Part shown: one piece after another, positions 3,286 to 37,766 of the stretch
How positions within the stretch are numbered: the stretch's first letter is position 1
How the letters are laid out: each line of letters opens with the position of its first letter
IMG/VR virus record: IMGVR_UViG_3300040801_006085
Location: 1 to 37,766 of that record
DNA length: 37,766 bases
Strand: one strand, 5' to 3'
DNA from: a virus
Position numbers and translations under genes: made by a program
Notes under the pieces: model-generated
Seen by the model: only the letters and a program-made list of their open reading frames with translations
What the model was told of the DNA's origin: nothing
The model's database searches: none

Positions 3286-3894
3286 TCAGGCCACATCGAC
3301 GTGCGGAGATATAAACCGCCGGCGGAATTGCTCGCGCACAACACCGATCACCCGAGAGGTCACGCCATCGAGCACAATGGGCTTGCGATGCGGGCCGGTG
3401 GCCGTGCCGCTGATGAGCCAGGCAGTCTCGTAAAACCTGAGCACCAAGGACGGCCGCCCAGCATCGCCCGGAACCTGCGCGATCACGAGCTCGCCGTTCC
3501 GCGGCACGGCGCCTCGCTCGCTCCGCACGATATCGCCCTTGCGAAAATCAACATGCGCCATCGCATCGCTAAGCACCTCGAAGTGCTCGAAGCCGTGCTC
3601 GGCATCCGCAGGAACGAAGGGAGGCAGCTTGATGATGGCTTGCAGTTCCTTCGCGGGAAGCGCCGTCTCCGCTGCGCTGGTTGGCCGATCCTCGGCCTCG
3701 TGAAATGCCGCCCGGATCTTGCGGAGCGTTGTCTCGCGCAGCGTATCGCTACGGCTTCCGTCTAGGAAGCCGTAAATAGTGGACGGCTGGATGCCGGCCT
3801 TCAACGCAAGGCCGTTCGCCGTGGCGTCGTGCCTATCCATGATTTCCTGCAGCTCGGCGAGCTGGCGATCGCGCTTCTCTGTCATGCGGGACAT
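3286..3894 (-). CDS. Phage repressor, HTH plus S24-type C-domain lacking the catalytic serine
   Basis: This is a CI/C2-type repressor of 202 residues from the ATG at 3894; the frame stays open to 3951. Residues 25-48 form a helix-turn-helix (NGLALKAGIQPSTIYGFLDG), and residues 98-200 resemble the LexA/S24 fold (FRKGDIV, then PRNGELVIAQV). The self-cleavage dyad seems absent: the position of the usual DSM serine reads SDAM (Ala111), and the Lys strand reads SLVLRFYE. The protein may therefore dimerise without RecA-triggered cleavage. It is transcribed divergently from a Cro-like gene across 3895-4028 and heads a leftward operon ending in the cytosine methyltransferase. The start is uncertain among ATG 3951, 3894 and 3885. 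The two later starts place the 16-base palindrome upstream of the gene. Confidence 0.9.
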   Translation of the reverse strand: MSRMTEKRDRQLAELQEIMDRHDATANGLALKAGIQPSTIYGFLDGSRSDTLRETTLRKIRAAFHEAEDRPTSAAETALPAKELQAIIKLPPFVPADAEHGFEHFEVLSDAMAHVDFRKGDIVRSERGAVPRNGELVIAQVPGDAGRPSLVLRFYETAWLISGTATGPHRKPIVLDGVTSRVIGVVREQFRRRFISPHVDVA

Positions 3895-4028
3895 ATTCAC
3901 CGCAAAAAGGTTCCTGCGCAATTGCGCAGCGCATACCCTCAAAACTTGCATTTAAGACTTGCCCTAGTTGCAGAAACGCTTGCAGTGTAGCGCTCTCATT
4001 CTCGTTACCCCACAGGCTGCGCCTTCTA
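3895..4028. promoter_or_regulatory. Genetic switch: divergent repressor/Cro-like operator region
   Basis: This gap separates the leftward repressor from the rightward Cro-like gene. It holds a perfect 16-base palindrome, CTGCGCAATTGCGCAG (3914-3929), and a cluster of related hexamers in the same orientation: CTTGCA at 3945 and 3979, CTTGCC at 3958 and GTTGCA at 3967, spaced 13, 9 and 12 bases. The repeats are likely operator half-sites, and the palindrome may be a second operator or part of the repressor leader. The region is markedly more AT-rich than its surroundings. No convincing -35/-10 pair could be fixed on either strand. Confidence 0.6.
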
Positions 4029-5923: not shown

Positions 5924-6279
5924 CCGGCGAGCTCTTCGCGGTGGTGGTGCCGACCTTCGTTCGGCATCCCGCACGCGTGGTGCCGACCTATGGCCGGCTT
6001 CACCGCGACCGCCCGTGCTCGCTGGTCGTCGCAGAGGGCGGCGGAGAGACGGTGTGGCGCAAGGATCGCATCGCATACCAACTTTTCAGCACCGCCGAAG
6101 ACTGCCGCGAATGCATCGCGGCGCTCGAGGAGGTGTCGGGCATCTCGGCCGCGAGACGGAGCGGCGACAAGCACCAGATCTGGGCGGCGCAGGAACTCCT
6201 GTTCCTGCCCGTCTCATCCTATCGGTGGACGAACAAAAAGGGGCGCCCGGATACGGCGCCCCTTTCCTATTGGAAATGA
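5920..6279 (+). CDS. Hypothetical early phage protein, 119 aa, with a hairpin in its 3' end
   Basis: The start overlaps the previous stop (ATGA). The N-terminal half is beta-rich (ELFAVVVPTFVRHPARVVP) and the middle carries a DCRECIAALEEVSGI helix. No family is recognised. The last 40 bases contain a perfect 11-base-pair hairpin (6237-6265), so the C-terminal WTNKKGRPDTAPLSYWK is encoded by a terminator-like element. Either the gene has grown into the terminator or the hairpin tunes downstream expression. Confidence 0.65.
   Translation: MTGELFAVVVPTFVRHPARVVPTYGRLHRDRPCSLVVAEGGGETVWRKDRIAYQLFSTAEDCRECIAALEEVSGISAARRSGDKHQIWAAQELLFLPVSSYRWTNKKGRPDTAPLSYWK
6237..6265 (+). terminator. Strong hairpin, probable intrinsic terminator or attenuator
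   Basis: The perfect inverted repeat AAAGGGGCGCC / GGCGCCCCTTT (11 pairs) flanks a 7-base loop. A-rich and T-rich ends make it potentially bidirectional. It lies inside the last codons of the 119-residue ORF and 47 bases before the next gene (ATG 6312). It would reduce transcription into the dnaN part of the operon unless antiterminated. The downstream T-tract is short, so the terminator strength is uncertain. Confidence 0.6.
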
Positions 6280-6311
6280 CGCCTCGGCAGGGCGAGAAGG
6301 GAAGACGAACA

Positions 6312-6644
6312 ATGTTTGAAGAACTTATCGGGGACACGGTGCTGTTGCGCCGCGGGGGGCGGTTCTGGCCAGCGAAGCTCTACCATCGCCGCGGCCTTCT
6401 CTACGCGAAGGACGGGCGCTATTTCCTCCGGCTGCAAGCCGATGGCGGATGCTCTGACCAGAAAACATCCTTTCGCGAGCTGAGCTGCGAGCTCGAGGTC
6501 TTCGCCGCGAGGAGCACGCTCAATGCCCTCACGCTTGATGGCGAGAACGGCAAGCCGCTGCGGGCCGAGATGGCGCGCACAATCCTCTTCCAGCCGGCCG
6601 ATCCCATCAAGGCTCTCGAGGATCTTCGGGAGGGCGAGCAATGA
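6312..6644 (+). CDS. Hypothetical protein, 110 aa, upstream of the beta clamp
   Basis: The chosen start is ATG 6312, preceded by a purine-rich ribosome site (GAAGGGAAGA). The frame is open far upstream, but the longer N-terminus is Arg/Ser-rich and overlaps the preceding genes. The product begins MFEELIGDTVLLRRGGRFW and reads as a small beta-rich fold (LLYAKDGRYFLRLQADGG) followed by helices. No family is recognised. It overlaps the dnaN start by ATGA, which implies coupling and perhaps a role with the clamp. Confidence 0.75.
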   Translation: MFEELIGDTVLLRRGGRFWPAKLYHRRGLLYAKDGRYFLRLQADGGCSDQKTSFRELSCELEVFAARSTLNALTLDGENGKPLRAEMARTILFQPADPIKALEDLREGEQ

Positions 6645-7768
6645 GCGAGGAGCGTTGTCCGCACACTGCCGATGCCTTCGACATGACGGCCAAACCGCCG
6701 GCCGAGAGCCGGGCCACCTTCCCGGCGGCTGCACTTCGCCAGGCGCTCGACCGAGCGATGAAGGTTTGCGGCAAGTCGAAGGTGCCCATGCTCGAGCACG
6801 TGCTAATCGCGGCGCGCGGTGGCCGGCTTAGCGTAGCTGCGACCGATCTCGACCGGCAGCTCACCATGCATATCGAATGCGAAGGCGAGCTCGCGCCGAT
6901 GGCGGTGCGACCGGAGAAATTGCGCACGGTCCTCGGTGCCTGCAAGGCCGAGGCAGAGATCGCGCTCGAGGCAGGCCGGCTCGAGGTTCGGGCCGGCGCA
7001 GCCAAGGGCAAGCTCGCTACGCTTCCGGGTGAAGACTTCCCGCTCTTCCCGCCGATCGAAGGCGCCGAAGACGTGGAGGTGGAATGCGGTGCGCTGAAAG
7101 AGGTGCTCAATGGGGTGCGCACGGCCATCGGCCGCGATGAGACCCGCTACTACCTGACCGGCGCCTACTTCGATCCTGAAGAGGCGGTCGTGGTCGGTAC
7201 GGACGGGCACCAGCTTGCCGCTGTTCCGTTCGAGCCGGCCAAGAGCCTTACGGCCTCCATCGTTCCTCTGCCCGCGATCGCCGACCTTCTGCTCTTTCCC
7301 GATGGGCCGGTGCGGATCCTGGCGAGCGAGCGCGCTTGGCGCGTCTCGAGCGAAACCGAGAGCCTGACCTTCAAGCTCATAGACGGCACCTATCCGAGTT
7401 GGCGCAGGGTGATCCCGGCGGGCGACCGCAAGTTCGCCTTCATCGCGGAGCGCCCACTGCTCCTCGCGGCGACCGACCAGGCGATGAAGATGGCCGATCA
7501 GAAGCACCGCGCCGTGACCTTGGAGAGCCGCGAGGATGCCTTGGTCATTGCCGCGGAAACCCGCGAGGAAGGATCCGTCGACCAGGTCGAGATCGAGGTG
7601 GCCGCCGAGGGCGAATGCCCGGCGTTTCGCGTCAATGGCACCTATCTGACGAATTTCCTCAAATTCGGTCGTTCACAGAAGGTTCGCATCGAGCACGACG
7701 GTCCCAACTCCATCCTATGCGACATGGATGAGGGCCGCACGTACCTCGTTATGGCGTTGAAAGCGTAA
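6641..7768 (+). CDS. dnaN: DNA polymerase III beta subunit (sliding clamp)
   Basis: This 375-residue protein has the three-domain layout of bacterial beta clamps and would encircle DNA to tether a polymerase. Recognisable segments include LRQALDRAM, MLEHVLIAARGGRLSVAATDLD, GTDGHQLAAVPF, the TYPSWRRVIP strand and the C-terminal NGTYLTNFLKF...RTYLVMALKA. Bacterial clamps usually end in VMPMR. No DNA polymerase gene is visible in the window, so it probably works with the host polymerase or other clamp-binding enzymes. It lies in the early operon, upstream of the initiator-like gene. The family call is firm; why the phage carries its own clamp is not shown by the sequence. Confidence 0.95.
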   Translation: MSEERCPHTADAFDMTAKPPAESRATFPAAALRQALDRAMKVCGKSKVPMLEHVLIAARGGRLSVAATDLDRQLTMHIECEGELAPMAVRPEKLRTVLGACKAEAEIALEAGRLEVRAGAAKGKLATLPGEDFPLFPPIEGAEDVEVECGALKEVLNGVRTAIGRDETRYYLTGAYFDPEEAVVVGTDGHQLAAVPFEPAKSLTASIVPLPAIADLLLFPDGPVRILASERAWRVSSETESLTFKLIDGTYPSWRRVIPAGDRKFAFIAERPLLLAATDQAMKMADQKHRAVTLESREDALVIAAETREEGSVDQVEIEVAAEGECPAFRVNGTYLTNFLKFGRSQKVRIEHDGPNSILCDMDEGRTYLVMALKA

Positions 7769-7783: not shown

Positions 7784-7963
7784 ATGATGAGCTCTCAAAC
7801 GCGCGCGCGGCGCGCCACGATCGGGGTGCGCCTGAATGGCTGTACCTTTCCGCGGGGCGAGGGCGGACGATCCGCCTGCGGCGCGCCACGCGAGGCCGGA
7901 TCGCCCTTTTGCGCCCGCCACCATCACCAAGTTCGGCAGGATCTTCACGGGGAGGCACGGTAA
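7784..7963 (+). CDS. GcrA-like mini-protein, 59 aa (C-terminal zinc-type motif only)
   Basis: This small ORF has an excellent ribosome site (GGAGGGG at 7772-7778) before ATG-ATG at 7784/7787; the GTG at 7778 overlaps that site. The product contains C20-TFP, then CGAPREAGSPFCARHHH (C32, C43, H46). This matches the conserved C-terminal pattern of GcrA (C-x-W-P ... F-C-G ... P-Y-C-x-x-H). GcrA is the alphaproteobacterial cell-cycle activator that binds sigma70 through that end. The DNA-binding N-terminus is missing, so the protein could compete for sigma70 or work with another DNA-binding partner. Its stop TAA overlaps the next ATG. The motif is clear; the function is inferred. Confidence 0.7.
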   Translation: MMSSQTRARRATIGVRLNGCTFPRGEGGRSACGAPREAGSPFCARHHHQVRQDLHGEAR

Positions 7964-9168
7964 TGTCCGCAGTTCAAATGATGGCAAGTTTTCAGCGGGC
8001 GCGGCTTCTGCCCGCTCGCGAGCATGCCCTGGCGATGGTGCTCGCCGATCATGCGCGCGAGATCGAAGTCAATGAGGCGTGGTGCGAGCTGTCGCTTCCG
8101 ACGCTGATCGATGAGGCCGACATGTCGAAGCCAACCGTTCTCAAGGGACTGGCCGCACTCGAGGCGCTCGGGATCATCCGCAAGACTGTCGGCGGCGGTG
8201 CCTCCGCGAACCAGTATGCGATCAACCTGCTCTGGCTCGAGGACGCCGCGCGGCGCCTCTACGACATCAAGAGGACCGCGAAACGCGAGCACGGCCGCCA
8301 TTGGCTCGGGCCTTATCGCGAGATCAAGGAGGCCGAGCGCGACCAGCTCCTGCGCGCCGGCGTGCCTCTCTCGCTCATTCCCGACGCCTGGCGGCGCAAT
8401 GGCATCACTCCGAGACCGGACGAATTGGCGACCTACTTCGGCAAGGGCAGGCCGACGAACAAGCCGGGCACGCGCTCCGTTTCTGCAAAGGATCGCGCGA
8501 AGGGCACCGAGAAAAAAGAGGCGACTTCGGCTGAGGGGGGTAAAGCGGCTTTACCGGTAGGGGGTAAAGCGGCTTTACCCCCTGAGGCTTCGTGTTTTCG
8601 GGGTCATTATGGTCAAAATTCGGAGATTTATGGTCAAAATTCGACCGATTATGGTCAACCCCAGGCTTTACCCCAAACCATAGAAACCAAAAAACCCTCT
8701 AAGGTTTCCTCTTCGAGTTCTGGGGGTGGCCGGGCTGATAGTTCGCGGCAGGGGACCGAGCACTCGGCCAGCGGTGAGGCCGAAGGGCAATCCGAGGACG
8801 GACAGGCTCTGAGCGGCTCCATCGCGATCGAGATTGCCGTGCTGTACTGGTGCGCGACCGGCATCTGGTCGCCGCCTAAGGGCTGCACCTCGGATCTCGG
8901 TCCACCGCCCGATGCGCAGGACGCTGCCGATCGCTTCGGCCTATCGGCATCGAAGCTGCGGTTTCGATACCAGTTCGAGATCCTTCCCGCCCTCGAGGAC
9001 CGGCGCGGCACCGCAGCCGGGCGCGTCGGGGCGATGCAGGCGAAGCTTCGCGAGCGTTTGGCCGGCGGCGATCAAGGCGCCCGAGAGCGGGTGCGCGTGG
9101 TCGAGCGATTGCTCGGCGCGCTGAAGGAGCGCGCCGTTCGGGAAACCCGCGAGGTGCGGCATGGGTAA
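7963..9168 (+). CDS. Replication initiator-like protein with winged HTH
   Basis: This 401-residue protein starts at ATG 7963, overlapping the previous TAA. Residues 1-100 look like a winged helix-turn-helix (LSLPTLIDEADMSKPTVLKG, then LEALGIIRKTVGGG), common at the N-terminus of phage initiators. Residues about 190-250 are low-complexity and repetitive (GGKAALP twice, YGQNS repeats) because the DNA there carries iterons. The C-terminal third is helical (AADRFGLSASKLRFRYQF). The arrangement recalls lambda O: an N-terminal DNA-binding domain, the origin inside the gene, and a C-terminal part to recruit the helicase loader. No helicase or loader gene follows. The initiator role is inferred from HTH plus iterons. 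Confidence 0.75.
   Translation: MSAVQMMASFQRARLLPAREHALAMVLADHAREIEVNEAWCELSLPTLIDEADMSKPTVLKGLAALEALGIIRKTVGGGASANQYAINLLWLEDAARRLYDIKRTAKREHGRHWLGPYREIKEAERDQLLRAGVPLSLIPDAWRRNGITPRPDELATYFGKGRPTNKPGTRSVSAKDRAKGTEKKEATSAEGGKAALPVGGKAALPPEASCFRGHYGQNSEIYGQNSTDYGQPQALPQTIETKKPSKVSSSSSGGGRADSSRQGTEHSASGEAEGQSEDGQALSGSIAIEIAVLYWCATGIWSPPKGCTSDLGPPPDAQDAADRFGLSASKLRFRYQFEILPALEDRRGTAAGRVGAMQAKLRERLAGGDQGARERVRVVERLLGALKERAVRETREVRHG
8539..8712. repeat. Iterons and AT-rich tract: probable replication origin
   Basis: Two copies of GGTAAAGCGGCTTTACC (8539-8555 and 8563-8579) repeat with a 24-base period, and a partial copy, GGCTTTACCCC, lies at 8664-8674. Each full unit is itself an inverted repeat. 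They are followed by TATGGTCAAAATTCG at 8608 and 8629 and a shortened TATGGTCAA at 8650, exactly 21 bases apart, which is two helical turns. An A-rich stretch follows (about 8675-8712), unusual in this GC-rich DNA. Iterons followed by an AT-rich block inside an initiator gene is the lambda-type origin layout. The repeats are directly visible; origin function is inferred. Confidence 0.7.
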
Positions 9169-27756: not shown

Positions 27757-28404
27757 GTGCCCCTGGAAACTCAGACAATCGGTAAGGCGACCCTCTATCG
27801 GGCCGATTGCCGCGAAGTGCTTCCAATCGTGCAGCACAAAGATCAAGCGATCCTCACCGACCCGCCCTACGGCATCAATATCGCCAAGTTCGGCGGAACT
27901 CGACTGCAGCCTGCGGGCGCTCCTCGGAAGGACTGGGACAGGCCGGTGGCCGATGTTGTGCTCGGCCTTCCCGGCATCGCCCCTGCTATTATTTGGGGTG
28001 GGAACTATTACTCGCTCCCTCCGACCCGCGGCTTCCTGGTCTGGCATAAGCCCTACGCTTTGCCGTCTATGGCCGATTGCGAGCTCGCGTGGACGCCCTG
28101 GGATCGGAACGCGCGCCTTCTGACATTCGACGTTGGTAAGGCGAAGCGTGAGCGAGTTGAGCGCGAGGGCGCGATGGGGCCGGTTCGGCACCCAACACAA
28201 AAGCCAGTACGGGTTTTCGATTGGTCGGCGGACCAATTCGAGCGCCTGCCTGCGATCCTCGACCCTTTTATGGGAACGGGGACCGCTGGCGTTGTCGCGT
28301 CACGGCGCGGCGTGCCCTTCATCGGGTGCGAGATGGACGCGGAGTATTTCGATATGGCCTGCAAGAGGCTCGAAGAGGAGGAGATGAGCGGAACACTCAT
28401 CTAG
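27757..28404 (+). CDS. Beta-class amino-DNA methyltransferase (N6-A or N4-C)
   Basis: This 215-residue enzyme starts at GTG 27757. Motif IV DPPYGINIAKF lies near the N-terminus and motif I DPFMGTGTAGVVA near the C-terminus, the order of the beta class, with HPTQKP before motif I as in CcrM-type enzymes. It is short for a full enzyme, so target specificity may be limited. No restriction partner is seen. It lies between the tail genes and the lysis cassette in the late region, so it would modify DNA late in infection. The class is firm; the recognition sequence is unknown. Confidence 0.92.
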   Translation: MPLETQTIGKATLYRADCREVLPIVQHKDQAILTDPPYGINIAKFGGTRLQPAGAPRKDWDRPVADVVLGLPGIAPAIIWGGNYYSLPPTRGFLVWHKPYALPSMADCELAWTPWDRNARLLTFDVGKAKRERVEREGAMGPVRHPTQKPVRVFDWSADQFERLPAILDPFMGTGTAGVVASRRGVPFIGCEMDAEYFDMACKRLEEEEMSGTLI

Positions 28405-28412
28405 CGTGATTT

Positions 28413-28877
28413 ATGGCGAACCATTTCACCGAGGAGGCGCTCGCGCTTCTGAAGGATCTCGAGGGCTTCAAGGCGGAGCCGTATCTGTGCTCGGGCAACG
28501 TCCTCACCATCGGCTACGGCCACACCTCGAAGGCGGGGCTTCCCTTCGTGGTGGAGGGCATGCGGCTCACCGAGCCGGAGGCAGAGGGCATCCTCCTGCG
28601 CGATCTTCTCACCTTTGAGGACGCCGTGCGGAGGCTCGTGCGGGCGCGCCTGACGGACACCGAGTTCTCGGCTTGCGTTATTCTCTGCTTCAATATCGGC
28701 GAGGGCAATTTCGGATCCTCGACCATGCTCAGGCGCCTTAATGCCGGCGATCGCGAGGGCGCGCTCGAGGCGTGGGGGTGGTGGACGTATGCGGACGGCG
28801 AGCACGTTCCCGGTCTTGCCACAAGGCGAGCGCGCGAGATCGCCCTTTTCCGCGGCCGTGCGGATCCCGGCTCATGA
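28413..28877 (+). CDS. Endolysin, GH24 lysozyme
   Basis: This 154-residue peptidoglycan muramidase has the catalytic pattern E-8-[D/C]-5-T: E17 in DLEGF, C26 in PYLCS and T32 in LTIGYGHT. The rest (SACVILCFNIGEGNFGSSTM, RRLNAGDREGALEAWGWWTY) is typical of T4/P22-like lysozymes. There is no signal peptide or N-terminal anchor, so it should need a holin for release. It is coupled to Rz by ATGA. Confidence 0.95.
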   Translation: MANHFTEEALALLKDLEGFKAEPYLCSGNVLTIGYGHTSKAGLPFVVEGMRLTEPEAEGILLRDLLTFEDAVRRLVRARLTDTEFSACVILCFNIGEGNFGSSTMLRRLNAGDREGALEAWGWWTYADGEHVPGLATRRAREIALFRGRADPGS

Positions 28878-29521
28878 TCGGCCGCGCGATCCGGCGCCGG
28901 CTGCCGATGAATTTCAGGGCGCACGCCGAGCTGGCCGCCCTTGTGCTGTTCGGCGTGATCTTCGCCGGCGTGGTGCACAAGGCCGACCAGGGCGGTTACA
29001 ACCGGGCGAAGGCCGAGGATCTTGCCGAGGTGCGGAAGTGGCGGGTTCGCTTCGAGACCCTCGAGGCACTCCGCGAGGCCGACTTCGAGGATTGGGAGCT
29101 CGAGCGGGCTGCGATCCGCCGGCGCGGCGACGATGCCCTCGAGGAGCTCGGCGAGCTCAACCTGAAAGCGATGCTTGAAAATGATCCGACACCTGATTGT
29201 CCTACTTGGCGCGTGTCTCGTCGCGAGCTGCTCCACGCGAGAGCCGTTGCAAATGCCGCAGTCGCGGCCGAGCTGCCCGATGCCGAGGCCGGACCTTATG
29301 CTGAGGCTGCCGCCGATACCGGAGCCGATGCCGGCGCCTGGATCGAGCGAGAATGGCTCGACCCGGACGACCTCGTCCGTTTGATTTCGCAGGGCTACAG
29401 AAGGGAAGCTCAATGCATGAGGAAGCTCCACGAATTGCAGGACGTGGTCCGCCGAGGACGCGCCGTTTATTCGGCCGAGGCGGAGACAAGGTTACGGTCT
29501 GGGATGACCTCAAGGGACTGA
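28874..29521 (+). CDS. Rz-like inner-membrane spanin
   Basis: This 215-residue protein starts in the endolysin stop. One membrane span near the N-terminus (ELAALVLFGVIFAGVVHKAD, about residues 18-37) is followed by a long charged coiled coil (AEDLAEVRKWRVRFETLEAL and on). This topology fits an i-spanin that fuses the inner and outer membranes at lysis. Its partner lipoprotein is encoded entirely inside it in another frame (29181-29384). The C-terminal 60 residues are acidic and Ala-rich; a shorter functional protein is possible. Confidence 0.8.
   Translation: MIGRAIRRRLPMNFRAHAELAALVLFGVIFAGVVHKADQGGYNRAKAEDLAEVRKWRVRFETLEALREADFEDWELERAAIRRRGDDALEELGELNLKAMLENDPTPDCPTWRVSRRELLHARAVANAAVAAELPDAEAGPYAEAAADTGADAGAWIEREWLDPDDLVRLISQGYRREAQCMRKLHELQDVVRRGRAVYSAEAETRLRSGMTSRD
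29181..29384 (+). CDS. Rz1-like outer-membrane spanin lipoprotein, nested in Rz
   Basis: This 67-residue ORF lies within Rz in a different frame. It has a short signal peptide MIRHLIVLLGACLVASC with lipobox LVASC (residues 13-17, lipid-modified C17) and a Pro-rich mature part (RPDLMLRLPPIPEPMPAPGS), exactly the Rz1 design. The start is ATG 29181, with an alternative TTG at 29175. The ribosome site is weak, as is common for nested Rz1 genes. Confidence 0.85.
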   Translation: MIRHLIVLLGACLVASCSTREPLQMPQSRPSCPMPRPDLMLRLPPIPEPMPAPGSSENGSTRTTSSV

Positions 29522-30135
29522 GCTTCGCGATCTTCGGCTCGGCTTCGATCGCGGGATCGGCCGGCGCCTTCGTGCAATGGTACGTGCACCGCGAGGATGT
29601 GGCCGAGGATCGGGATTTTTCGTTCATGGAGCGCCAGGCGCAGAGCGAGCTCGAGAACGCGGAGCGCTGGCAGGCGCGCGCGATCGATTGCGAGGCTCGA
29701 GGCCGGCTTCTGAGCGAGGAGAACGTTCGGCTGATCCTACAAGCCTCGAAGGGGACGCCGCCCGAGAAGGTGCTTCGCGCAGTCACCGAGGCCGACTTCG
29801 GTCATTCGATCGTGGTCCGACGGATGCCGAGCGGAACGCTTAGCGTTATCGGGGTGAGCCGCGGCATCGCCTACGACCTCTTGGGCTCGCCGCCCCACCT
29901 GTATCGTGGGGAGAGCCTCGAGGCCGTCTTCGGCTCGAAGGGGGCAAAGGCGTTCGCGGCGAGCACCGAGGCGGCCTTCGTGTCGGGCGGGCTCGAGGTG
30001 CAGGACGAGGTGAGCTCAACCCGCACCGGGCTCGCGGGCTATCTGACCGGGCGCAAGTACAGAGTGAACCTCGAGGGGCACGAGGCCAGCTTCATTATAG
30101 CGCAGCTCAGTTTTCGAGCTCGCAACCCGGAATAA
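29413..30135 (+). CDS. Membrane protein with PAS-like C-domain, candidate sensor holin
   Basis: This 240-residue protein starts at ATG 29413 after GAAGGGAAGC. The Arg-rich N-terminus (residues 1-35) precedes one span at about 36-58 (LSFAIFGSASIAGSAGAFVQ), predicting N-in/C-out. A coiled coil (about 60-110) then leads to a PAS-like domain (about 135-235) with SGTLSVIGVSRGIAYDLLGS, LYRGESLEAVFGSKG and GRKYRVNLEGHEASFI. The lysis cassette has no other holin candidate and the endolysin needs one. The topology and size resemble T4 holin T (one span, large periplasmic domain), so a holin with a sensing domain is possible. The span is clear; PAS and holin are inference. Confidence 0.6.
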   Translation: MHEEAPRIAGRGPPRTRRLFGRGGDKVTVWDDLKGLSFAIFGSASIAGSAGAFVQWYVHREDVAEDRDFSFMERQAQSELENAERWQARAIDCEARGRLLSEENVRLILQASKGTPPEKVLRAVTEADFGHSIVVRRMPSGTLSVIGVSRGIAYDLLGSPPHLYRGESLEAVFGSKGAKAFAASTEAAFVSGGLEVQDEVSSTRTGLAGYLTGRKYRVNLEGHEASFIIAQLSFRARNPE

Positions 30136-30229: not shown

Positions 30230-30490
30230 ATGTCCGATCTTAACACCTACCCGGTGGAGCCGGATAGTCCGCCCTCGCGCGCTATCGACATCACGCCGAA
30301 CGATAGCGATGACCTGACCTTCGTGATCCGGGGGCTGATGGTGGCGGAGGCCGGGAACGTGGCCGTTGAGACCGTTCTCGGCGATACGGTCACCCTGCCG
30401 GCGCTGCAGCCTGGGGCGCAGTATGCGATCCTCTGCCGGAAGGTTCTGGCGGCCGGCACGACCGCGACCGGGATCGTGGGGCTGGCATGA
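30230..30490 (+). CDS. Spike base protein, RCAP_rcc01079-like (prophage copy)
   Basis: This 86-residue protein has a strong ribosome site (AAAGGAGAACCTGA). The signature DLTFVIRGLMVAEAGNVAVE, GDTVTLPALQPGAQYAILCR and KVLAAGTTATGIVGL matches the small spike base family of Rhodobacter GTA head spikes. It is coupled to the large fibre gene by ATGA, the same order as in the GTA spike pair. A second copy lies outside the prophage at 34828. Confidence 0.85.
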   Translation: MSDLNTYPVEPDSPPSRAIDITPNDSDDLTFVIRGLMVAEAGNVAVETVLGDTVTLPALQPGAQYAILCRKVLAAGTTATGIVGLA

Positions 30491-33400
30491 AGCGATGGGG
30501 CCTCATGTTTTCGCCCTCGGCGCGTGCGCTGTTGTCGAGCGACCCGATCATCCCGGCGCTCCGCGTGCCCGATATCGTTGCAGGTATATCCGTCACGCCG
30601 GGGACCGGATCGGCCGCGATCACCTGGGATGAACCGGAGGCGAACAGCTCGGCCATTACCGGCTACAGGGTGCAGATCGATGACGGCTCGGGCTTCGAGA
30701 CCGTGCGCGATACCGCCGACACAACGCGCAGCTTCGACGCCTCGGATCTTACCGGCGGCGCCCTGACGCGCGTGCGCATCGCGGCGCGTAACAGCGACGG
30801 CCTCGGCGCCTACTCGGTGCCGGTGGAGTTCGTGCCTCTGGTGCCGGCTTCCGTTCCGGGGCAGCCGACCGGGGTCTCGGTATCCATCGGCGACGGCGAG
30901 GCCGAGGCTACCTGGAACCCGCCGGCCGATAACGGCGGCGCTCCGATTACCGATTACGTGCTCGAGCTCTCGGAGGATGGCGGTGCCACGTGGTCGACGG
31001 TGGCCGATGGCGCCGGCTCGGCAACGACCGCGCTTCTCGAGGGCCTCACTAACGGCACTCGCTACCGCCTGCGCGTCTCGGCGGTGAACGAAGCAGGCCA
31101 GGGGCAGGTATCGCAGGCGGCGGACTTCACTCCGCAAGGGGCGATCGCGCAGGCCGGTCTCGCGATGGGCGAGCTTACCGATCGCCGCGTCTATCAGCGC
31201 TCGAGCGAGACGGGCGGCGCCTTCGGCAAGGGATCGGCGGCGATTGCGGTGCCGATCACGCTGACGGCCGAGGCTGCGTCCATCGAGTATCGCCTCATCG
31301 ATCCCGACACCGATCAAACAGTCGTCAACTGGTCGACCGCGGGAACCGATATTGCAGCCTCCACGACCGAGCTCACCCTCGAGGTGCCGGCGGCGCTTGG
31401 CTGGTATGCGCTCGAATTGAGGGCCAACCAGGACAACGCGCAGGTCGTGCGTGGCCAAAACCGCTTCGCGGTCGGGCGGGTGATCGCGGTCGCGGGCCAG
31501 TCGCTCGCAACCCGGATGATCGACAATCAGGGCATGGACGGCACCTTCGCCGACTTCGGCCTCACGGTGCCTGAGAACTGTTCCGTTTACGCAACCTATC
31601 TGGGGCCGAACGACGATGACACGCCGGTCTGGGCGCCGCCGAACGAAGGCGGTTTCGGCTCGGAATACTCCTCGACCTTCCTGCCCGAGTTCTTCCGCCT
31701 TCAGACCGCAGCGGCAGGCGTGACATGCGCTATCGTCGGGCACGCGGTGGGCGGCGCGAGCGCGTGGCAGTTCCGAGACAGCGGCACGGACGGTATCCAG
31801 CTCGCGTCGGTGCTGGAGGATGTTGGAGGCTTCGAGGCGTTCATCTGGTTCCAGGGGCACTCCGACCGGGCCGGCAACGACTACGGCAGCACGCTCGGGC
31901 AGCGCTTCACCGAGTTCGCGGGCTACAATGCCCTTCGCGCAGGCGACTTCGAGAAGTATGTCGCCACCATCCCGAACGTACAGCATGAGGCATATCAGGA
32001 CGACGCGCAGAACATCCTCGAGATCAGGGCGGAGGCGCAGGCGTGGTGCGAGGCGAACGGCGCGGTCTATGTGCAGCCGAACGATCTCGAGATGGACGAC
32101 ACGCTGCACCAGAGCCAGGCCGGCAACATCACGCTCGCGCATCACTTCCATCGGGCAACCCTGCCGGCGCTCGGGCTGCCGGGCGATCACCTCGGGCCGG
32201 CGATCACCGCGGCCAGCCGCACCGGCAGCACCATCACCCTGCAGGTGACGCACCGGCCGGGCGCTACGGCACTGGTCGCCGAAGGTAATGTCGAGGATAT
32301 CTTCTCGGTCTTTGCTGATGGAGATCTTGCGGCCGAGCTGCCGATCGCCTCGGCAAGCGTGGCGGCTGCCGAGATCACTCTCGAGCTGGCCAATGATCCC
32401 GGCTCGGTCGCGCTCGATGTTTACGCCGGCCTCGCGCCCGATAAGGGTACGCCGTGGGCTGACAACATCTACGACAATCATACCGATGGCGACGGCATCA
32501 CGGATGGTCGCCTTCTGCAGGTGACGCTCGCGCCGGTGGATGTTGCGGCCGTGGCCGCGCCCGCTACCAGACCGGCGGCGATCGATGATCTCGCGGTCAC
32601 GGCCGGCGATGGCGATGCCGATGCGAGCTGGTCGGCGCCGGCGAGCGGTGGGGATCCGATCACCGATTACGTGCTCGAGCTCTCGGATGATGGCGGCAGC
32701 ACCTGGTCGGTCTATGCGGACGGGGTGGGCGCCACCAACGCAGCGACCGTTAATTCTCTCGCCAACGGCACCGAGTACCGCCTCCGCGTGGCGGCGGTGA
32801 ACGGCATCGGTACGGCCAACTGGTCGAACGTCGCGACGTTCACACCGGAAAGCGGCGCAGCGGCACCGGCCGCGATCGATGATCTCGCGGTCACGGCCGG
32901 CGATGGCGATGCCAATGCGAGCTGGTCGGCGCCGGCGAGCGGTGGGGATCCGATCACCGATTACGTGCTCGAGCTCTCGGATGATGGCGGCAGCACCTGG
33001 TCGGTCTATGCGGACGGTGTGGGCACCGAAACCTCGGCAACGATCGAAGCTCTCGCCAACGACACTGAGTACCGCCTCCGCGTGGCGGCGGTGAACGGCA
33101 TCGGTACGGCCAACTGGTCGAACGTCGCGACGTTCACGCCCGAGGCCGCGGGCGGCGATACGCCGGTCGGCTTCGATCTCGACGGCTCGGGCGCGAGCTT
33201 CGCTACCGGACGGTTCGGCCAGGCGCTCAGCGCCACCACGATCGAGGTGCAGGACCAGGACATCGCGCCGGAGGGCACCGATACCTTCACCGTCGAGTGC
33301 TGGGTCCGGCGCGCCGATCAGGAGGACAAGATCGCGCTCTCGGGCGAGGACCGCTGGTGGATCGGCTGCGACGGCGCCAACACCTGGTTCCGCATCACGA

Positions 33401-33762
33401 CGGCCGGTGGCAACAAGGTGCACTTGGCCCGCAACGCGGCGCCGGTGCCGGCCGGCGTCTGGCATCACATGGCGCTGGTCTGCCATCCGGGCGGGGCGAG
33501 GGCTTATCTCGACGGCGTCGAGGTCGGCAGCACGACAGACCTGCCGGCGCAGACCGCGGGCCGGAATCCGGCCGCATTGATCGGCGGCATCGGGCCGTTG
33601 CCGCAGTTCAATTGGGATGGTGAGATCGACGAAGTCGCGGTCTTCGATACCGAGCGGTACACCGCGAACTTCACGCCGCCCACCGCGCCGTACACGGGCA
33701 ACGAGCCTGGTCTGGTGCAGCTATGGCACTTCGACGGCGACACGCTCTCGGCGCGCGTCTAG
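30487..33762 (+). CDS. Large spike fibre: FN3 repeats, carbohydrate esterase-like core, LamG-like end
   Basis: This 1091-residue receptor-binding protein has two N-terminal FN3 domains (about 25-115 and 118-217), an insertion, then an SGNH/sialate-O-acetylesterase-like domain (about 325-560). That domain has VAGQSLA (Ser339), WFQGHSD (454-460) and DDTLHQ (D538, H541), the three blocks of that family. Two nearly identical FN3 domains (about 697-887) and a LamG-like C-terminal domain (about 930-1091, ECWVRRADQEDKIALSGEDR to the end) follow. It probably binds and trims acetylated surface polysaccharide. It is a head-spike or tail-spike candidate by analogy with GTA GhsB. Domain calls come from motifs. 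Confidence 0.85.
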   Translation: MKRWGLMFSPSARALLSSDPIIPALRVPDIVAGISVTPGTGSAAITWDEPEANSSAITGYRVQIDDGSGFETVRDTADTTRSFDASDLTGGALTRVRIAARNSDGLGAYSVPVEFVPLVPASVPGQPTGVSVSIGDGEAEATWNPPADNGGAPITDYVLELSEDGGATWSTVADGAGSATTALLEGLTNGTRYRLRVSAVNEAGQGQVSQAADFTPQGAIAQAGLAMGELTDRRVYQRSSETGGAFGKGSAAIAVPITLTAEAASIEYRLIDPDTDQTVVNWSTAGTDIAASTTELTLEVPAALGWYALELRANQDNAQVVRGQNRFAVGRVIAVAGQSLATRMIDNQGMDGTFADFGLTVPENCSVYATYLGPNDDDTPVWAPPNEGGFGSEYSSTFLPEFFRLQTAAAGVTCAIVGHAVGGASAWQFRDSGTDGIQLASVLEDVGGFEAFIWFQGHSDRAGNDYGSTLGQRFTEFAGYNALRAGDFEKYVATIPNVQHEAYQDDAQNILEIRAEAQAWCEANGAVYVQPNDLEMDDTLHQSQAGNITLAHHFHRATLPALGLPGDHLGPAITAASRTGSTITLQVTHRPGATALVAEGNVEDIFSVFADGDLAAELPIASASVAAAEITLELANDPGSVALDVYAGLAPDKGTPWADNIYDNHTDGDGITDGRLLQVTLAPVDVAAVAAPATRPAAIDDLAVTAGDGDADASWSAPASGGDPITDYVLELSDDGGSTWSVYADGVGATNAATVNSLANGTEYRLRVAAVNGIGTANWSNVATFTPESGAAAPAAIDDLAVTAGDGDANASWSAPASGGDPITDYVLELSDDGGSTWSVYADGVGTETSATIEALANDTEYRLRVAAVNGIGTANWSNVATFTPEAAGGDTPVGFDLDGSGASFATGRFGQALSATTIEVQDQDIAPEGTDTFTVECWVRRADQEDKIALSGEDRWWIGCDGANTWFRITTAGGNKVHLARNAAPVPAGVWHHMALVCHPGGARAYLDGVEVGSTTDLPAQTAGRNPAALIGGIGPLPQFNWDGEIDEVAVFDTERYTANFTPPTAPYTGNEPGLVQLWHFDGDTLSARV
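32575..33145 (+). repeat. Tandem near-identical FN3 modules in the spike fibre
   Basis: Two copies of a 294-base unit (starting near 32575 and 32869) encode a 98-residue FN3 domain. The first half is almost base-identical (for example GATCGATGATCTCGCGG in both); differences cluster in a short middle stretch (ATNAATVNSLAN versus TETSATIEALAN). The linkers also differ. This is a recent duplication inside the gene; the copy outside the prophage has a single unit here. Confidence 0.9.
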
Positions 33763-33790: not shown

Positions 33791-34345
33791 TCACCATTTT
33801 CGATCGCGGCGCTGGCGCTCGAGAACACCGAGGATCTCCACCGCCGATCCCTCGGCGAGGAAGGTCGGGTGCCGCGATGGCGATCTCGGCACAAGAAAGG
33901 GCGGCTCGTAAAGCCGTATGCGAAGGCTTTGCGTGCCGCGCCCTGTCATTGCAATGCGCACGCACAGAATGTCCTCGGCCTTGGGCATCCGATCGCGCTC
34001 GAAGAGCAGCTCGTCGCCGGGCTCGATACCCTCGAGCGAGAGGGCATTGCTGCGCATCTCGAGGGCGAGGCCGGGGGTGGGGAAGCCTGCCGAGCGCCAG
34101 TCGGCCTCGGTGAGGGAGCGCACCTCGGCGTCATCTTCGGCGGCCGCCTGGCCGGGCACTTCCAGGCGTGCCGCTTCGCCGATCTTCTGCAGGGTAAGGG
34201 GCCGGAGCGTGCCGCCCTGTTCGGACAGGAAGCGGGTCAGCGTGCTCGGATTGATCTTCGCCGCTCGGGCGAGGCCAGTCGGGGATAATTCGAGGGTGTC
34301 GAGCGCTCGCCGAACGAAGGCGAGCTGGACGGGGCGCGCAGTCAT
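33791..34345 (-). CDS. Second HTH/S24-like repressor lacking the catalytic dyad
   Basis: This 184-residue protein has an N-terminal helix-turn-helix (SPTGLARAAKINPSTLTRFL, residues 21-40) and an S24-like C-domain (IEPGDELLFERDRMPKAEDI). As in the main repressor, the Ser position reads SNALS (A101) and the Lys position R144 (SLRIRLYEPPF), so self-cleavage is unlikely. It lies convergent to the spike fibre gene and next to the attachment site, away from the main switch. It may silence the integrase or spike region or give superinfection immunity. The start is ATG 34345; CTCGC-TT-GCGAG at 34360-34371 is a possible operator upstream. Confidence 0.8.
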   Translation of the reverse strand: MTARPVQLAFVRRALDTLELSPTGLARAAKINPSTLTRFLSEQGGTLRPLTLQKIGEAARLEVPGQAAAEDDAEVRSLTEADWRSAGFPTPGLALEMRSNALSLEGIEPGDELLFERDRMPKAEDILCVRIAMTGRGTQSLRIRLYEPPFLVPRSPSRHPTFLAEGSAVEILGVLERQRRDRKW

Positions 34346-34562: not shown

Positions 34563-34600
34563 TGGCGGAGACGAAGGGATTCGAACCCTCGAGACGGCTA
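34563..34600. other. Presumed attR: 3' part of tRNA-Ser
   Basis: The prophage genes stop on the 3' side of the tRNA, and tyrosine integrases commonly use the T-arm and 3' end as the crossover site. A matching fragment is expected just left of the integrase, outside this window, so the exact core cannot be defined here. Confidence 0.5.
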
Positions 34601-34655
34601 CAAACCGCCTACTCCCTTAGCAGGGGAGCGCCTTCGACCACTCGGCCACGTCTCC
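34563..34655 (-). tRNA. tRNA-Ser (anticodon GCT)
   Basis: On the minus strand the acceptor arms GGAGACG and CGTCTCC pair perfectly. The D-arm reads TGGCCGAGTGGTCGAAGGC, the anticodon stem CTCCC/GGGAG flanks the loop with GCT, and a long variable arm (GGCGGTTTGTAGCCGTC) typical of Ser tRNAs follows. The T-arm is GAGGGTTCGAATCCCTT and CCA is encoded (34563-34565). The prophage lies on the 3' side, the usual integration side. Confidence 0.95.
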
Positions 34656-34691: not shown

Positions 34692-34827
34692 GACCTTTCC
34701 CGCTTCGCGCGGCCTCGATCGGGCTCCGATCGGCGCAAACTTATCCCCGGTCCCGGACCGGCCCCTAGTCTTGGCGCTCAGACCTGTTGCCGGCCGGTGA
34801 TGACCGCCGGCGGATATGGAGAGCGCC

Positions 34828-35091
34828 ATGACGACCGATCTCGAAACCCTGCAGCCCGGCCTCGAAAGCCCGCCTTCGCGCGGCACCGTGGTCACCCCCG
34901 ATGACAATGCGGATCTCAGCTTCCCTGTCAGGGGCCTCATGGTGGCGGGCGCTGGCGATGTCTCGGTGGAGACACTCGGCGGGGATACCGTGACCCTCCC
35001 TGCGCTGCAGCCCGGCGTGCAGTACGCGGTGCTCGCCCGGAGGGTCCTCGCGGCAGGCACCACGGCCACCGGCATCATCGGGCTCGCCTGA
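34828..35091 (+). CDS. Spike base protein, RCAP_rcc01079-like (copy outside the prophage)
   Basis: This 87-residue protein is closely similar to the prophage copy at 30230, sharing RGLMVA, GDTVTLPALQPG and LAAGTTATGI. The start is ATG 34828 after GGAGAG; ATG 34816 overlaps that ribosome site. The 170 bases upstream hold the tRNA promoter and GC-rich inverted repeats (for example CCGGTCC-C-GGACCGG at 34747). It overlaps the large fibre gene by a single base (stop TGA and ATG share an A). Being beyond the tRNA it is probably host DNA, perhaps the GTA head-spike locus; a neighbouring phage remnant is the alternative. Confidence 0.85.
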   Translation: MTTDLETLQPGLESPPSRGTVVTPDDNADLSFPVRGLMVAGAGDVSVETLGGDTVTLPALQPGVQYAVLARRVLAAGTTATGIIGLA

Positions 35092-37766
35092 TGAGACTGG
35101 GCTTGGGACTGAGTTCTTCGCGTCCGCAGCGCACCGGCGGCGGGGCCCTCCCGCCGAGCCTCAACGTGCCCGGGCAGGTGAACGGACTGACGCTCCGGCC
35201 GGGCGACGGCGAGTTGACCGCAAGCTGGGAGGAGCCACTGAATGACGGCCCGCCAGTCCGGGACTATCTCATCCAGCTCGATGCCGGAAACGGGTTCGCC
35301 ACGATCACGGATGGGGTCGGGACAGACCGGAGTTTCGTCGTCGAGGGGCTGAAGAATGGCGACAGCTACCGCCTCCGCGTTGCAGCCATCAACGATGACG
35401 GAACCGGTGCGTTTTCCAGCGCAGTGCGTGCGGTCCCGGCGGCTTCGGTGGGCTTTTCCGTGACCGAGCCGGCGGCCTACCGCGTCTTCCAGCGTGCGAA
35501 CGAAACCGGTGGAGCGTTCGGTCTGGGCGAAGCGGCGGCGGGTTTCCGCATCGACGCCTCCGAAGCGATCCCACAACTCGAGATGCGCCTGCGGGATGCG
35601 GCGGACGGTTCGGTTCTTGCGGACTGGCACCTCGAAGCCGAGAACCTCCCGCAGGGCGGGACTGATATCGAGGTCACGCTGCCCGCGCGGAAGGGGTGGT
35701 TCGTCGCCGATTTCAGGGCGGGCAACGACACGGTCCTGGGGCAGAACCCGATCGCGGCAGGCCGGGTCATTGCCGTTGCGGGGCAGAGCCTTGCGACCCG
35801 TCTGCTCAACGACCAGGGGGAGACGGGAAGCTTCGCAGCCCTCGGCCTGGGGGTGCCCGAGCACGGTGCGGTCTACGCGACCTTCTCCGGGCCCGAGACC
35901 GACGAAACCGCGGTCTGGGCACCGCCCAACGAGGGTGGTTTCGGGTCGGAATATTCGAGCGCCTTCCTGCCGGCATTCCTGAGCCTTCAGGCCGAAGCGT
36001 CCGGCGTGACCTGCGCGGTCGTCGGTCATGCCCAGGGCGGTGCGAGTGCATGGACGTTCCGGCCTTCGGGCAGCAACGGGATCGCACTCGCCTCGGTGCT
36101 GGGCGAGGTCGGAGGCTTCGAAGCCTTCATCTGGTTCCAGGGCCATTCCGACCGCGGAACTTCGGACTATGGCGGGATACTCGAAAACCGCTTTGCAGAA
36201 TTCGCAGGCTACAACGCCCTTCGCGGGCAGGACTTCGACAGGATCGTCGCTACGATTCCGAACGTTCAGCACCCAGCCTATGCGGAGGACCAGGAGGCCA
36301 TCCTCAGCCTTCGCGCCAGCGCGAAAGCCTGGTGCGAGGCGAACGGTGCGGCCTATGTCCAGCCGCACGACATCGAGATGGACGACACGCTGCACCAGAA
36401 CCAGGCAGGCAACATCACCCTCGCGGGGCATTTCCACAGGGCGAGCCTGCCGGGGCTCGGGCTTGGCGAGGGCCACCTCGGGCCGCAGGTGACTGGGGGC
36501 AGCCGAAGCGGTACCATCGTGACCCTCGATGTGACGCACCGGCCAGGCGGCACGACGCTCATCGGTGAAGGCAGTTTTGCAAATCTCTTCAGTCTCGTGG
36601 CGGTAGGCGAGGTCGGACCGCCGCTCTCTATTGCCCAGGCGTCGGTCGGTGACGACACAGTGACGCTTGAGCTGGCAGAAGATCCGGGGGCATCCGAGCT
36701 GGACCTCCATGTGAACCTCTCGCCAGACCGGGGAACGCCTTGGGCAGACAATATCTATGATGACCGCCTCGGAGGCGATGGACTCGGCTTCGGACGGCCT
36801 CTCGAAACCACGCTCGCGCCGGTCAGGATCACGGCCATGGCCGCCCCTGCGACAGTCCCCGCCGCCATCGACGACCTCTCGGTCGCGGCGGGCGACGGTG
36901 AAGCCCTTGCAAGCTGGACCGCCCCCGGGGACGGAAGTGACCCGATCACGGACTACCACCTTGAAATCTCCGAAGACGGAGGAGCAACCTTCACGCAGGT
37001 GAATGATGGTGTGTCGGACGTGCCGGGAGCAACCCTGGGAAACCTCGTGAACGGGACTGAGTATCACCTTAGGGTTCGGGCCGAGAACGGTGTCGGGCCT
37101 GGCGAGTTCTCGGAGGCCAAGGCGTTCATCCCGGCTGCGGCGGCCACGGGAGGTGACACGCCCGTGGGGCGGGACATCGATACCAGCAGTGCCGGGTTCG
37201 CGCCGGCCGGCGCCGGGTTCGGGCAGGCCCTCGCGAACAGCCGGGTCGAACTCGGTTCCGGCCTGGCGCCCGGTGGCTCGAACACCTTCACCGTGGAATG
37301 TCGCCTGAGGCCAGCCAATGACGACAAGGACCAGATCGCACTGTCCGATAACGGGAGGTGGTGGATCGGCAAGGACGGAAACGAGACCTGGTTCCGCATT
37401 CTCGAGCCTGGCGGTGCCAAGATCCACCTTGCCAGGCGGGCGGCGCCCATGCTCGCGGGGCAGTGGTATCACGCTGCCCTCGTCTGCGGGCCGTCCGGTT
37501 GCCGGGTCTTCCTGGACGGAACGGAAATCGGCTCGACGACCTCGACGGTGACGACATCCACCGGGGGAAGTCCCGGGGGCTGCATCGGCGGGCTCGCCGA
37601 ATCGGGGACATTCGACTGGGAGGGCGAAATCGACGAGATCGCGGTTTTCGACCATGAGCGCTACGCCGCGGGATTCACGCCGCCCCAGGCACCCTATACC
37701 GGATCGGAGCCGGGGCTCGTCGAGCTTTGGCACCTCGATGGTGACGGCCTTTCGGCACGGGTCTGA
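35091..37766 (+). CDS. Large spike fibre: FN3, esterase-like core, LamG-like end (copy outside the prophage)
   Basis: This 891-residue paralogue of the prophage fibre keeps the same domain order with one FN3 at the N-terminus instead of two and one FN3 before the LamG-like end instead of two. The esterase-like core retains VAGQSLA (S233, codon AGC rather than TCG), WFQGHSD (348-354) and DDTLHQ (D432, H435). Codon choice differs from the prophage: Leu-Glu pairs are mostly CTCGAA or CTTGAA rather than CTCGAG. The stop codon is the last three bases of the window. It is a candidate GTA-type head spike (GhsB-like) of the host; the assignment is by analogy. Confidence 0.85.
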   Translation: MRLGLGLSSSRPQRTGGGALPPSLNVPGQVNGLTLRPGDGELTASWEEPLNDGPPVRDYLIQLDAGNGFATITDGVGTDRSFVVEGLKNGDSYRLRVAAINDDGTGAFSSAVRAVPAASVGFSVTEPAAYRVFQRANETGGAFGLGEAAAGFRIDASEAIPQLEMRLRDAADGSVLADWHLEAENLPQGGTDIEVTLPARKGWFVADFRAGNDTVLGQNPIAAGRVIAVAGQSLATRLLNDQGETGSFAALGLGVPEHGAVYATFSGPETDETAVWAPPNEGGFGSEYSSAFLPAFLSLQAEASGVTCAVVGHAQGGASAWTFRPSGSNGIALASVLGEVGGFEAFIWFQGHSDRGTSDYGGILENRFAEFAGYNALRGQDFDRIVATIPNVQHPAYAEDQEAILSLRASAKAWCEANGAAYVQPHDIEMDDTLHQNQAGNITLAGHFHRASLPGLGLGEGHLGPQVTGGSRSGTIVTLDVTHRPGGTTLIGEGSFANLFSLVAVGEVGPPLSIAQASVGDDTVTLELAEDPGASELDLHVNLSPDRGTPWADNIYDDRLGGDGLGFGRPLETTLAPVRITAMAAPATVPAAIDDLSVAAGDGEALASWTAPGDGSDPITDYHLEISEDGGATFTQVNDGVSDVPGATLGNLVNGTEYHLRVRAENGVGPGEFSEAKAFIPAAAATGGDTPVGRDIDTSSAGFAPAGAGFGQALANSRVELGSGLAPGGSNTFTVECRLRPANDDKDQIALSDNGRWWIGKDGNETWFRILEPGGAKIHLARRAAPMLAGQWYHAALVCGPSGCRVFLDGTEIGSTTSTVTTSTGGSPGGCIGGLAESGTFDWEGEIDEIAVFDHERYAAGFTPPQAPYTGSEPGLVELWHLDGDGLSARV

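Follow-up and report, generated by a model that had tools for sequence, protein, structure and literature searches.

The locus described here raises the question of how a phage endolysin devoid of an export signal could cross the inner membrane, and whether the last gene of its operon encodes the holin responsible. An initial annotation had proposed that this gene (29413-30135, +), hereafter the candidate gene, encodes a holin with a periplasmic PAS-like sensor domain. The window, i.e., the whole stretch of DNA analyzed, is the entire virus record IMGVR_UViG_3300040801_006085 (37,766 bases). It encodes an integrase, a terminase, a portal, a major head protein and a tape-measure protein, along with a GTA-like tail protein and DUF2793.

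Genomic Context

Several other features of the record were noted. One repressor-like gene is found near each end (3286-3951, −, and 33791-34345, −), with HTH or UmuD-like matches that are weak. Right after the integrase gene, a 44-aa single-span ORF (1376-1510, +; KD 2.26) might, as an outside possibility, encode a small membrane protein or one of holin type. The early region also contains a C5-cytosine-type DNA methyltransferase gene (1548-2768, −), and an N6/N4-type DNA methyltransferase gene (27757-28404, +) lies directly 5′ of the endolysin gene, ending 8 nt before it. The true start of a replication-initiator-like ORF is probably further in, as its first 24 codons (7909-7980, +) score −16.2 nats. 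A complete tRNA-Ser(GCT) gene (34563-34655, −), of which 45 nt match two Rhizobium phages at 97.8%, is a possible attachment site. Just past it, a second pair of spike-base and spike-fibre genes is present (34816-37766), whose fibre is 57% identical to that of the pair at 30230-33762, and the right end of the window may be part of another element or of the host.

The lysis operon is composed, in this order, of an endolysin, an i-spanin with a nested o-spanin and, finally, the candidate gene, which is followed by head-spike genes. The endolysin gene (28413-28877, +) encodes a 154-aa GH24 phage lysozyme (PF00959, E = 1.2e-37; phrog_7, E = 1.4e-48). The claim that this enzyme has no export signal was confirmed: neither a hydrophobic export segment, a signal nor an anchor was found, the best 19-residue KD value being 1.07. 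The Rz-like i-spanin (28874-29521, +; 215 aa), whose start overlaps the endolysin stop as ATGA, has a single N-terminal span (KD 2.09 at residue 16) and matches phrog_1403, an Rz-like spanin family (E = 0.0089), while a Pfam search returned no match. Nested in this gene in a different frame, an ORF of 67 aa (29181-29384, +) encodes an Rz1-like lipoprotein, the o-spanin, with the lipobox-like motif LVASC; its best PHROG match is weak (phrog_812, Rz-like spanin, E = 0.17). An i-spanin with an N-terminal span and a nested ORF with such a lipobox correspond to a two-component spanin. The candidate gene, directly after the endolysin, Rz-like and nested lipoprotein genes, thus belongs to the lysis cassette, as originally stated.

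The next gene on the 3′ side encodes a head-spike base protein (30230-30490, +) of the RCAP_Rcc01079 family (NF048002 spike base, E = 9.9e-24), followed by a head-spike fibre (30487-33762, +) with Pfam matches to fn3, esterase-like and lectin-like domains. The second spike pair, at 34816-37766, is not preceded by a copy of the candidate gene, which therefore is no constant component of the spike module. The lysis operon is ordinary; its orphan last gene is unusual.

Coding Signal and Start of the Candidate Gene

The open reading frame spans 29353-30135, and the ATG at 29413 gives a protein of 240 aa with a single membrane span and a predicted PAS-like C-terminal domain. Codon log-odds of this frame are above zero in every tiled segment between 29485 and 29800 (e.g., +12.2 at 29629-29700, 24 codons), whereas those of the other two frames are mostly below zero over the same interval. 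From 29521 to 30132, the candidate frame scores 0.153 per codon versus −0.605 and −0.378 in the other frames. Because its frame scores positive from 29485 on while the others are mostly negative, the candidate gene is coding.

The first 24 codons (29413-29484, +), which are overprinted on the i-spanin frame, behave differently: their score is −12.5 nats when read as the candidate and +4.4 when read as the i-spanin, and a value as low as the former is seen in a single one of 621 in-frame tiles of 24 codons. A content of 25% Arg, as in residues 1-24, is reached by 1.4% of 621 in-frame 24-mers versus 45.5% of 800 out-of-frame ones, and this Arg-rich segment thus has the composition of an out-of-frame reading. 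The signs reverse at 29485, the best change point being 29484/29485 (log-likelihood 21.6, versus 2.9 at 29413 and 6.0 at 29518), and codon log-odds indicate that the last 12 i-spanin codons also look out of frame.

Translation of residues 1-24 requires initiation at ATG 29413. A Shine-Dalgarno-like motif, AAGGGA (29401-29406, +), is located 6 nt before this ATG; a motif of that kind precedes 6 of 161 out-of-frame ATGs inside genes and 4 of the 16 gene starts examined. Between ATG 29413 and the span, no further ATG, GTG or TTG is found. Because of this motif and of the lack of an alternative start before the span, a start at ATG 29413 with an overprinted tail is favoured over a frameshift joining both frames near 29485, and these signals suggest, if modestly, that translation begins there.

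Membrane Span and Topology

The single hydrophobic span predicted earlier was recovered at residues 36-58 (LSFAIFGSASIAGSAGAFVQWYV; 29518-29586, +). It is rich in Gly, Ala and Ser and scores 1.58 on the KD and 37.1 on the GES scale. By KD alone, this segment is borderline, since 1.57 is reached in 760 of 5000 shuffled versions of the protein. A run of 25 uncharged residues, as found here, is less common and occurs in 108 of 5000. One span is what is expected of a class III holin, and one such segment was found, with this borderline KD value.

The initial annotation had deduced from the Arg-rich N-terminus that this end is cytoplasmic and that about 180 residues lie outside. Residues 1-35 contain eight K/R and five D/E, and the 17 residues past the span three K/R and six D/E, a balance which favours an N-in orientation, less strongly than it first appeared. 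The topology is uncertain because this charge argument leans on the basic tail, which is overprinted on the i-spanin gene and seemingly out of frame.

After the span, a probable helix (residues about 66-111; 29608-29745, +) likely links it to the C-terminal domain, a low-confidence model placing helices at residues 76-95 and 102-111. Although a helix is predicted, the coiled coil proposed for this part is not supported, because 4848 of 5000 shuffles reach its heptad a/d count in what is a crude test.

The C-Terminal Domain

The outer part of the protein had also been described as PAS-like, a proposal to which structure prediction lent weak support and sequence profiles none. A low-confidence model of residues 113-240, made without alignment (mean pLDDT 50, pTM 0.45), shows the strand order of the PAS fold, with two strands, a helical stretch, a long helix and three strands at residues about 131-236 (29803-30120, +). 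When this model was submitted to Foldseek, 36 of the best 50 rows were PAS or LOV, as judged from row titles; the best E-value was 0.05, none being significant, and the probability reached 0.94. The rows left out of this count comprised seven rubella capsid entries, DotB, two HSP33, IclR, CAR4 and two entries for an unnamed B. subtilis domain. Realignment of Foldseek's own candidates placed PAS-fold proteins, again by title, in 49 of the best 50 entries, the remaining one being the unnamed B. subtilis domain. TraJ PAS domains ranked at the top with Z-scores of 8.6 and 8.5, although best Z-scores of 7 to 8 are typical of models without a clear match. The full-length model (mean pLDDT 38) gave no PAS-titled row among its best 50 structure matches.

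At the sequence level, no PAS row was obtained in Pfam for the whole protein (E up to 1) or for two parts of it (E up to 10), and no PAS domain was found among PDB sequences. A home-made PAS profile gave the candidate 3.2 bits, a score reached by 59 of 5000 shuffles and 97 of 3617 ORF tiles. With a half-trained profile, it scored −0.5 bits (reached by 1109 of 5000 shuffles) while held-out PAS domains scored 20 to 128 bits. Similarly, hhalign against PAS returned a probability of 0.5%, the same as for the control, T4 holin T, compared with 98% and 95% for two left-out PAS domains. No profile match to PAS was thus significant; nevertheless, the alignments by HMMER and by hhalign both have residues about 153-201 in correct register with PAS. 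Weak matches to AcrF8, MDMPI_C and nitrite reductase, the Pfam ones below cut-offs, were attributed to chance. In a viral structure library, no phage relative was found, and a few PAS-named viral proteins were among the rows.

Overall, we consider a PAS fold slightly better than an even bet. Another small alpha/beta fold, which would make the candidate an orphan single-span lysis protein and which is compatible with either function discussed below, is a serious contender, as the profile scores are within or near chance and the hhalign value equals that of T4 holin T. Against it, the strand and helix order of the model, its PDB matches and the common register found by the two profile methods all point to PAS.

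Search for Relatives

In viral contigs, queries with the whole protein and two fragments gave 3, 22 and 21 pattern stretches, and genome contigs gave 61, none of which was confirmed. A phage collection yielded seven records, all with E-values of 6 or worse, and plasmids yielded no relative. Among 390 and 397 genomes of two orders, five and two matches were obtained at E ≤ 0.01, which is about chance level for 787 genomes. Two of these seven, at loci L167 and L169, were rejected since their alignments were judged to be out-of-frame readings, and a tblastn re-check of the other five gave no alignment. Nothing was found at E = 1 in the eight whole genomes behind the loci, and neither the 22 records behind the fetched loci nor the 84 loci contained a relative. 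Without filters, 164 loci gave 11 ORFs with E-values of 0.18-4.6, and the six loci reached through the spike gene gave two (0.12 and 0.25). Scans in which the endolysin, spike-base and i-spanin proteins served as bait returned no confirmed relative either. As far as such searches, which reach only close relatives of a lone query, can tell, the candidate appears to be an orphan in all collections searched.

Holin Candidates in the Window and at a Syntenic Locus

Among the ORFs of 40-349 aa in the window (span KD at least 1.55), none has two spans, in agreement with the claim that an ordinary holin is absent. Upstream of the endolysin gene, the window contains no holin-like ORF, this position being occupied by a methyltransferase gene. 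The candidate is the best holin candidate in the operon; it matches no holin family, and a BLASTP comparison with T4 holin T gave a best E-value of 8.1, which does not indicate homology.

Six loci were reached through the spike gene and the neighbourhood was listed for five of them. In one, L235, from a syntenic phage, the compact operon (6041-7732) comprises a holin (DUF7940/phrog_1356, 2.6e-6) that precedes the endolysin, an Rz-like gene, a nested lipoprotein gene and a gene for a 107-aa single-span protein (7412-7732; phrog_7885, 4.6e-10, unknown function), beside spike genes; such a layout is clear in this one of the six loci only. The 107-aa protein has no sequence similarity to the candidate. 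Given that the L235 phage encodes its holin at another place in the operon and fills the slot of the candidate with an unrelated single-span protein, identification of the candidate as a holin by elimination is weak, and this slot can hold a membrane protein other than a sole holin.

Endolysins of other loci show hydrophobic segments. The L235 endolysin carries a hydrophobic N-terminal stretch, and in endolysin ORFs at L043, L047, L093 and L238 a hydrophobic span lies in the C-terminal part (for instance, in L043, at residue 274 with KD 2.56); the latter are possibly anchored endolysins of alphaproteobacterial prophages.

Comparison With Known Systems

The resemblance to T4 holin T noted previously holds for the layout and not for the sequence. 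In the published account, T is made of an amphipathic helix, a span, a bridge helix and a globular domain, the last being required for regulation only (PMC12162936). T, so described, and the candidate are alike in size (218 and 240 aa) and in having one span, a linking helix and a C-terminal globular domain. Both genes also lie beside fibre genes. The N-terminal amphipathic helix of T is described there as needed for the hole (PMC12162936), whereas the candidate, whose N-terminal tail is rich in Gly and Pro, has no clear one. Further differences are the lack of sequence similarity, the uncertain topology of the candidate and the fact that the T domain was not matched to PAS here.

N4 gp63, a regulated class III pinholin, likewise has one span and a soluble part to which control of lysis timing is ascribed (PMC12642591). 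As presented there, it differs in that this part is cytoplasmic, its "Receiver domain" is a mutation cluster and no sensor fold, and its partner is a SAR endolysin (PMC12642591).

With TraJ PAS, FixL and short LOV proteins, the low-confidence model of the candidate shares the strand-strand-helices-strand-strand-strand order and matches their structures. They differ by the absence of a significant profile match to the candidate and, for most of them, by a cytoplasmic location. The closest positional counterpart is the L235 protein (phrog_7885/736/462), which also sits between Rz/Rz1 and spike genes and has an N-terminal span followed by a probable helix. At 107 aa, it lacks a PAS-like domain and has no sequence similarity to the candidate, and its own phage has a separate holin.

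Proposed Function and Rival Explanations

Our best guess, with a probability of about 0.4, is that the candidate carries a PAS-like regulatory domain and acts as a class-III-like holin or as a holin regulator. It would be a single-span inner-membrane protein produced late, together with the lysis genes. Its N-terminus would be inside and about 180 residues periplasmic, as a helix and then the PAS-like domain. The Gly/Ala/Ser-rich span may accumulate in the membrane and then open to let the endolysin pass, with the PAS-like domain possibly timing lysis by subunit pairing or by binding of a small ligand. A more specific version, in which a temperate phage of GTA-tail kind would encode a sensory holin, single-span and class-III-like, with a periplasmic PAS domain and with lysis timing adjusted through a small ligand, through redox state or through the pairing of subunits outside the membrane, is improbable as a whole; a variant of it allows for the i-spanin to be frameshift-fused to a cytoplasmic PAS module.

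Alternatively, the candidate might be a membrane protein with an accessory role and not the holin, encoded between the lysis and spike genes and acting for instance in superinfection, at the envelope or at the lysogeny stage; the holin would then be an unrecognised gene elsewhere, or another export route would be in use. We regard this as somewhat less likely. It is consistent with L235, where the 107-aa single-span protein is encoded after Rz1 and ahead of the spike genes and the phrog_1356 holin lies before the endolysin, and the 44-aa ORF after the integrase gene would offer an alternative holin. However, nothing holin-like lies ahead of the endolysin in the window, and the L235 protein is dissimilar in sequence, in a layout clear at one of six loci.

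In a further reading, which seems unlikely, a frameshift near 29485, be it programmed, natural or an assembly error, divides a single gene into what appear as the i-spanin and the candidate. The PAS-like domain would then be cytoplasmic, like that of ordinary membrane sensors, the fused product having two spans that flank a periplasmic loop. PAS domains are mostly cytoplasmic, which fits such a fusion, as do the switch of the coding signal at 29484/29485 and the out-of-frame appearance of both the Arg-rich tail and the i-spanin end. Yet ATG 29413 has a good Shine-Dalgarno motif and no slippery heptamer was seen near 29485 on inspection by eye. Moreover, overlapping genes can give such a split signal, and the nested o-spanin likewise scores poorly in its own frame by codon log-odds.

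Significance

The locus cautions against inferring topology from overlapped, GC-rich start regions and, even if it does not encode a holin, the candidate gene is plainly an orphan, next to a lysis operon that is well defined. Full-text literature searches returned no report of a holin with a PAS or PAS-like domain, as judged from titles and the beginning of abstracts, and none for a holin with a sensor domain. If the preferred reading is true, the candidate would represent a second design, besides T4 holin T, of a holin with an outer regulatory domain, here with a sensor fold that is among the commonest. Lysis timing would then become directly testable as a response to a signal.
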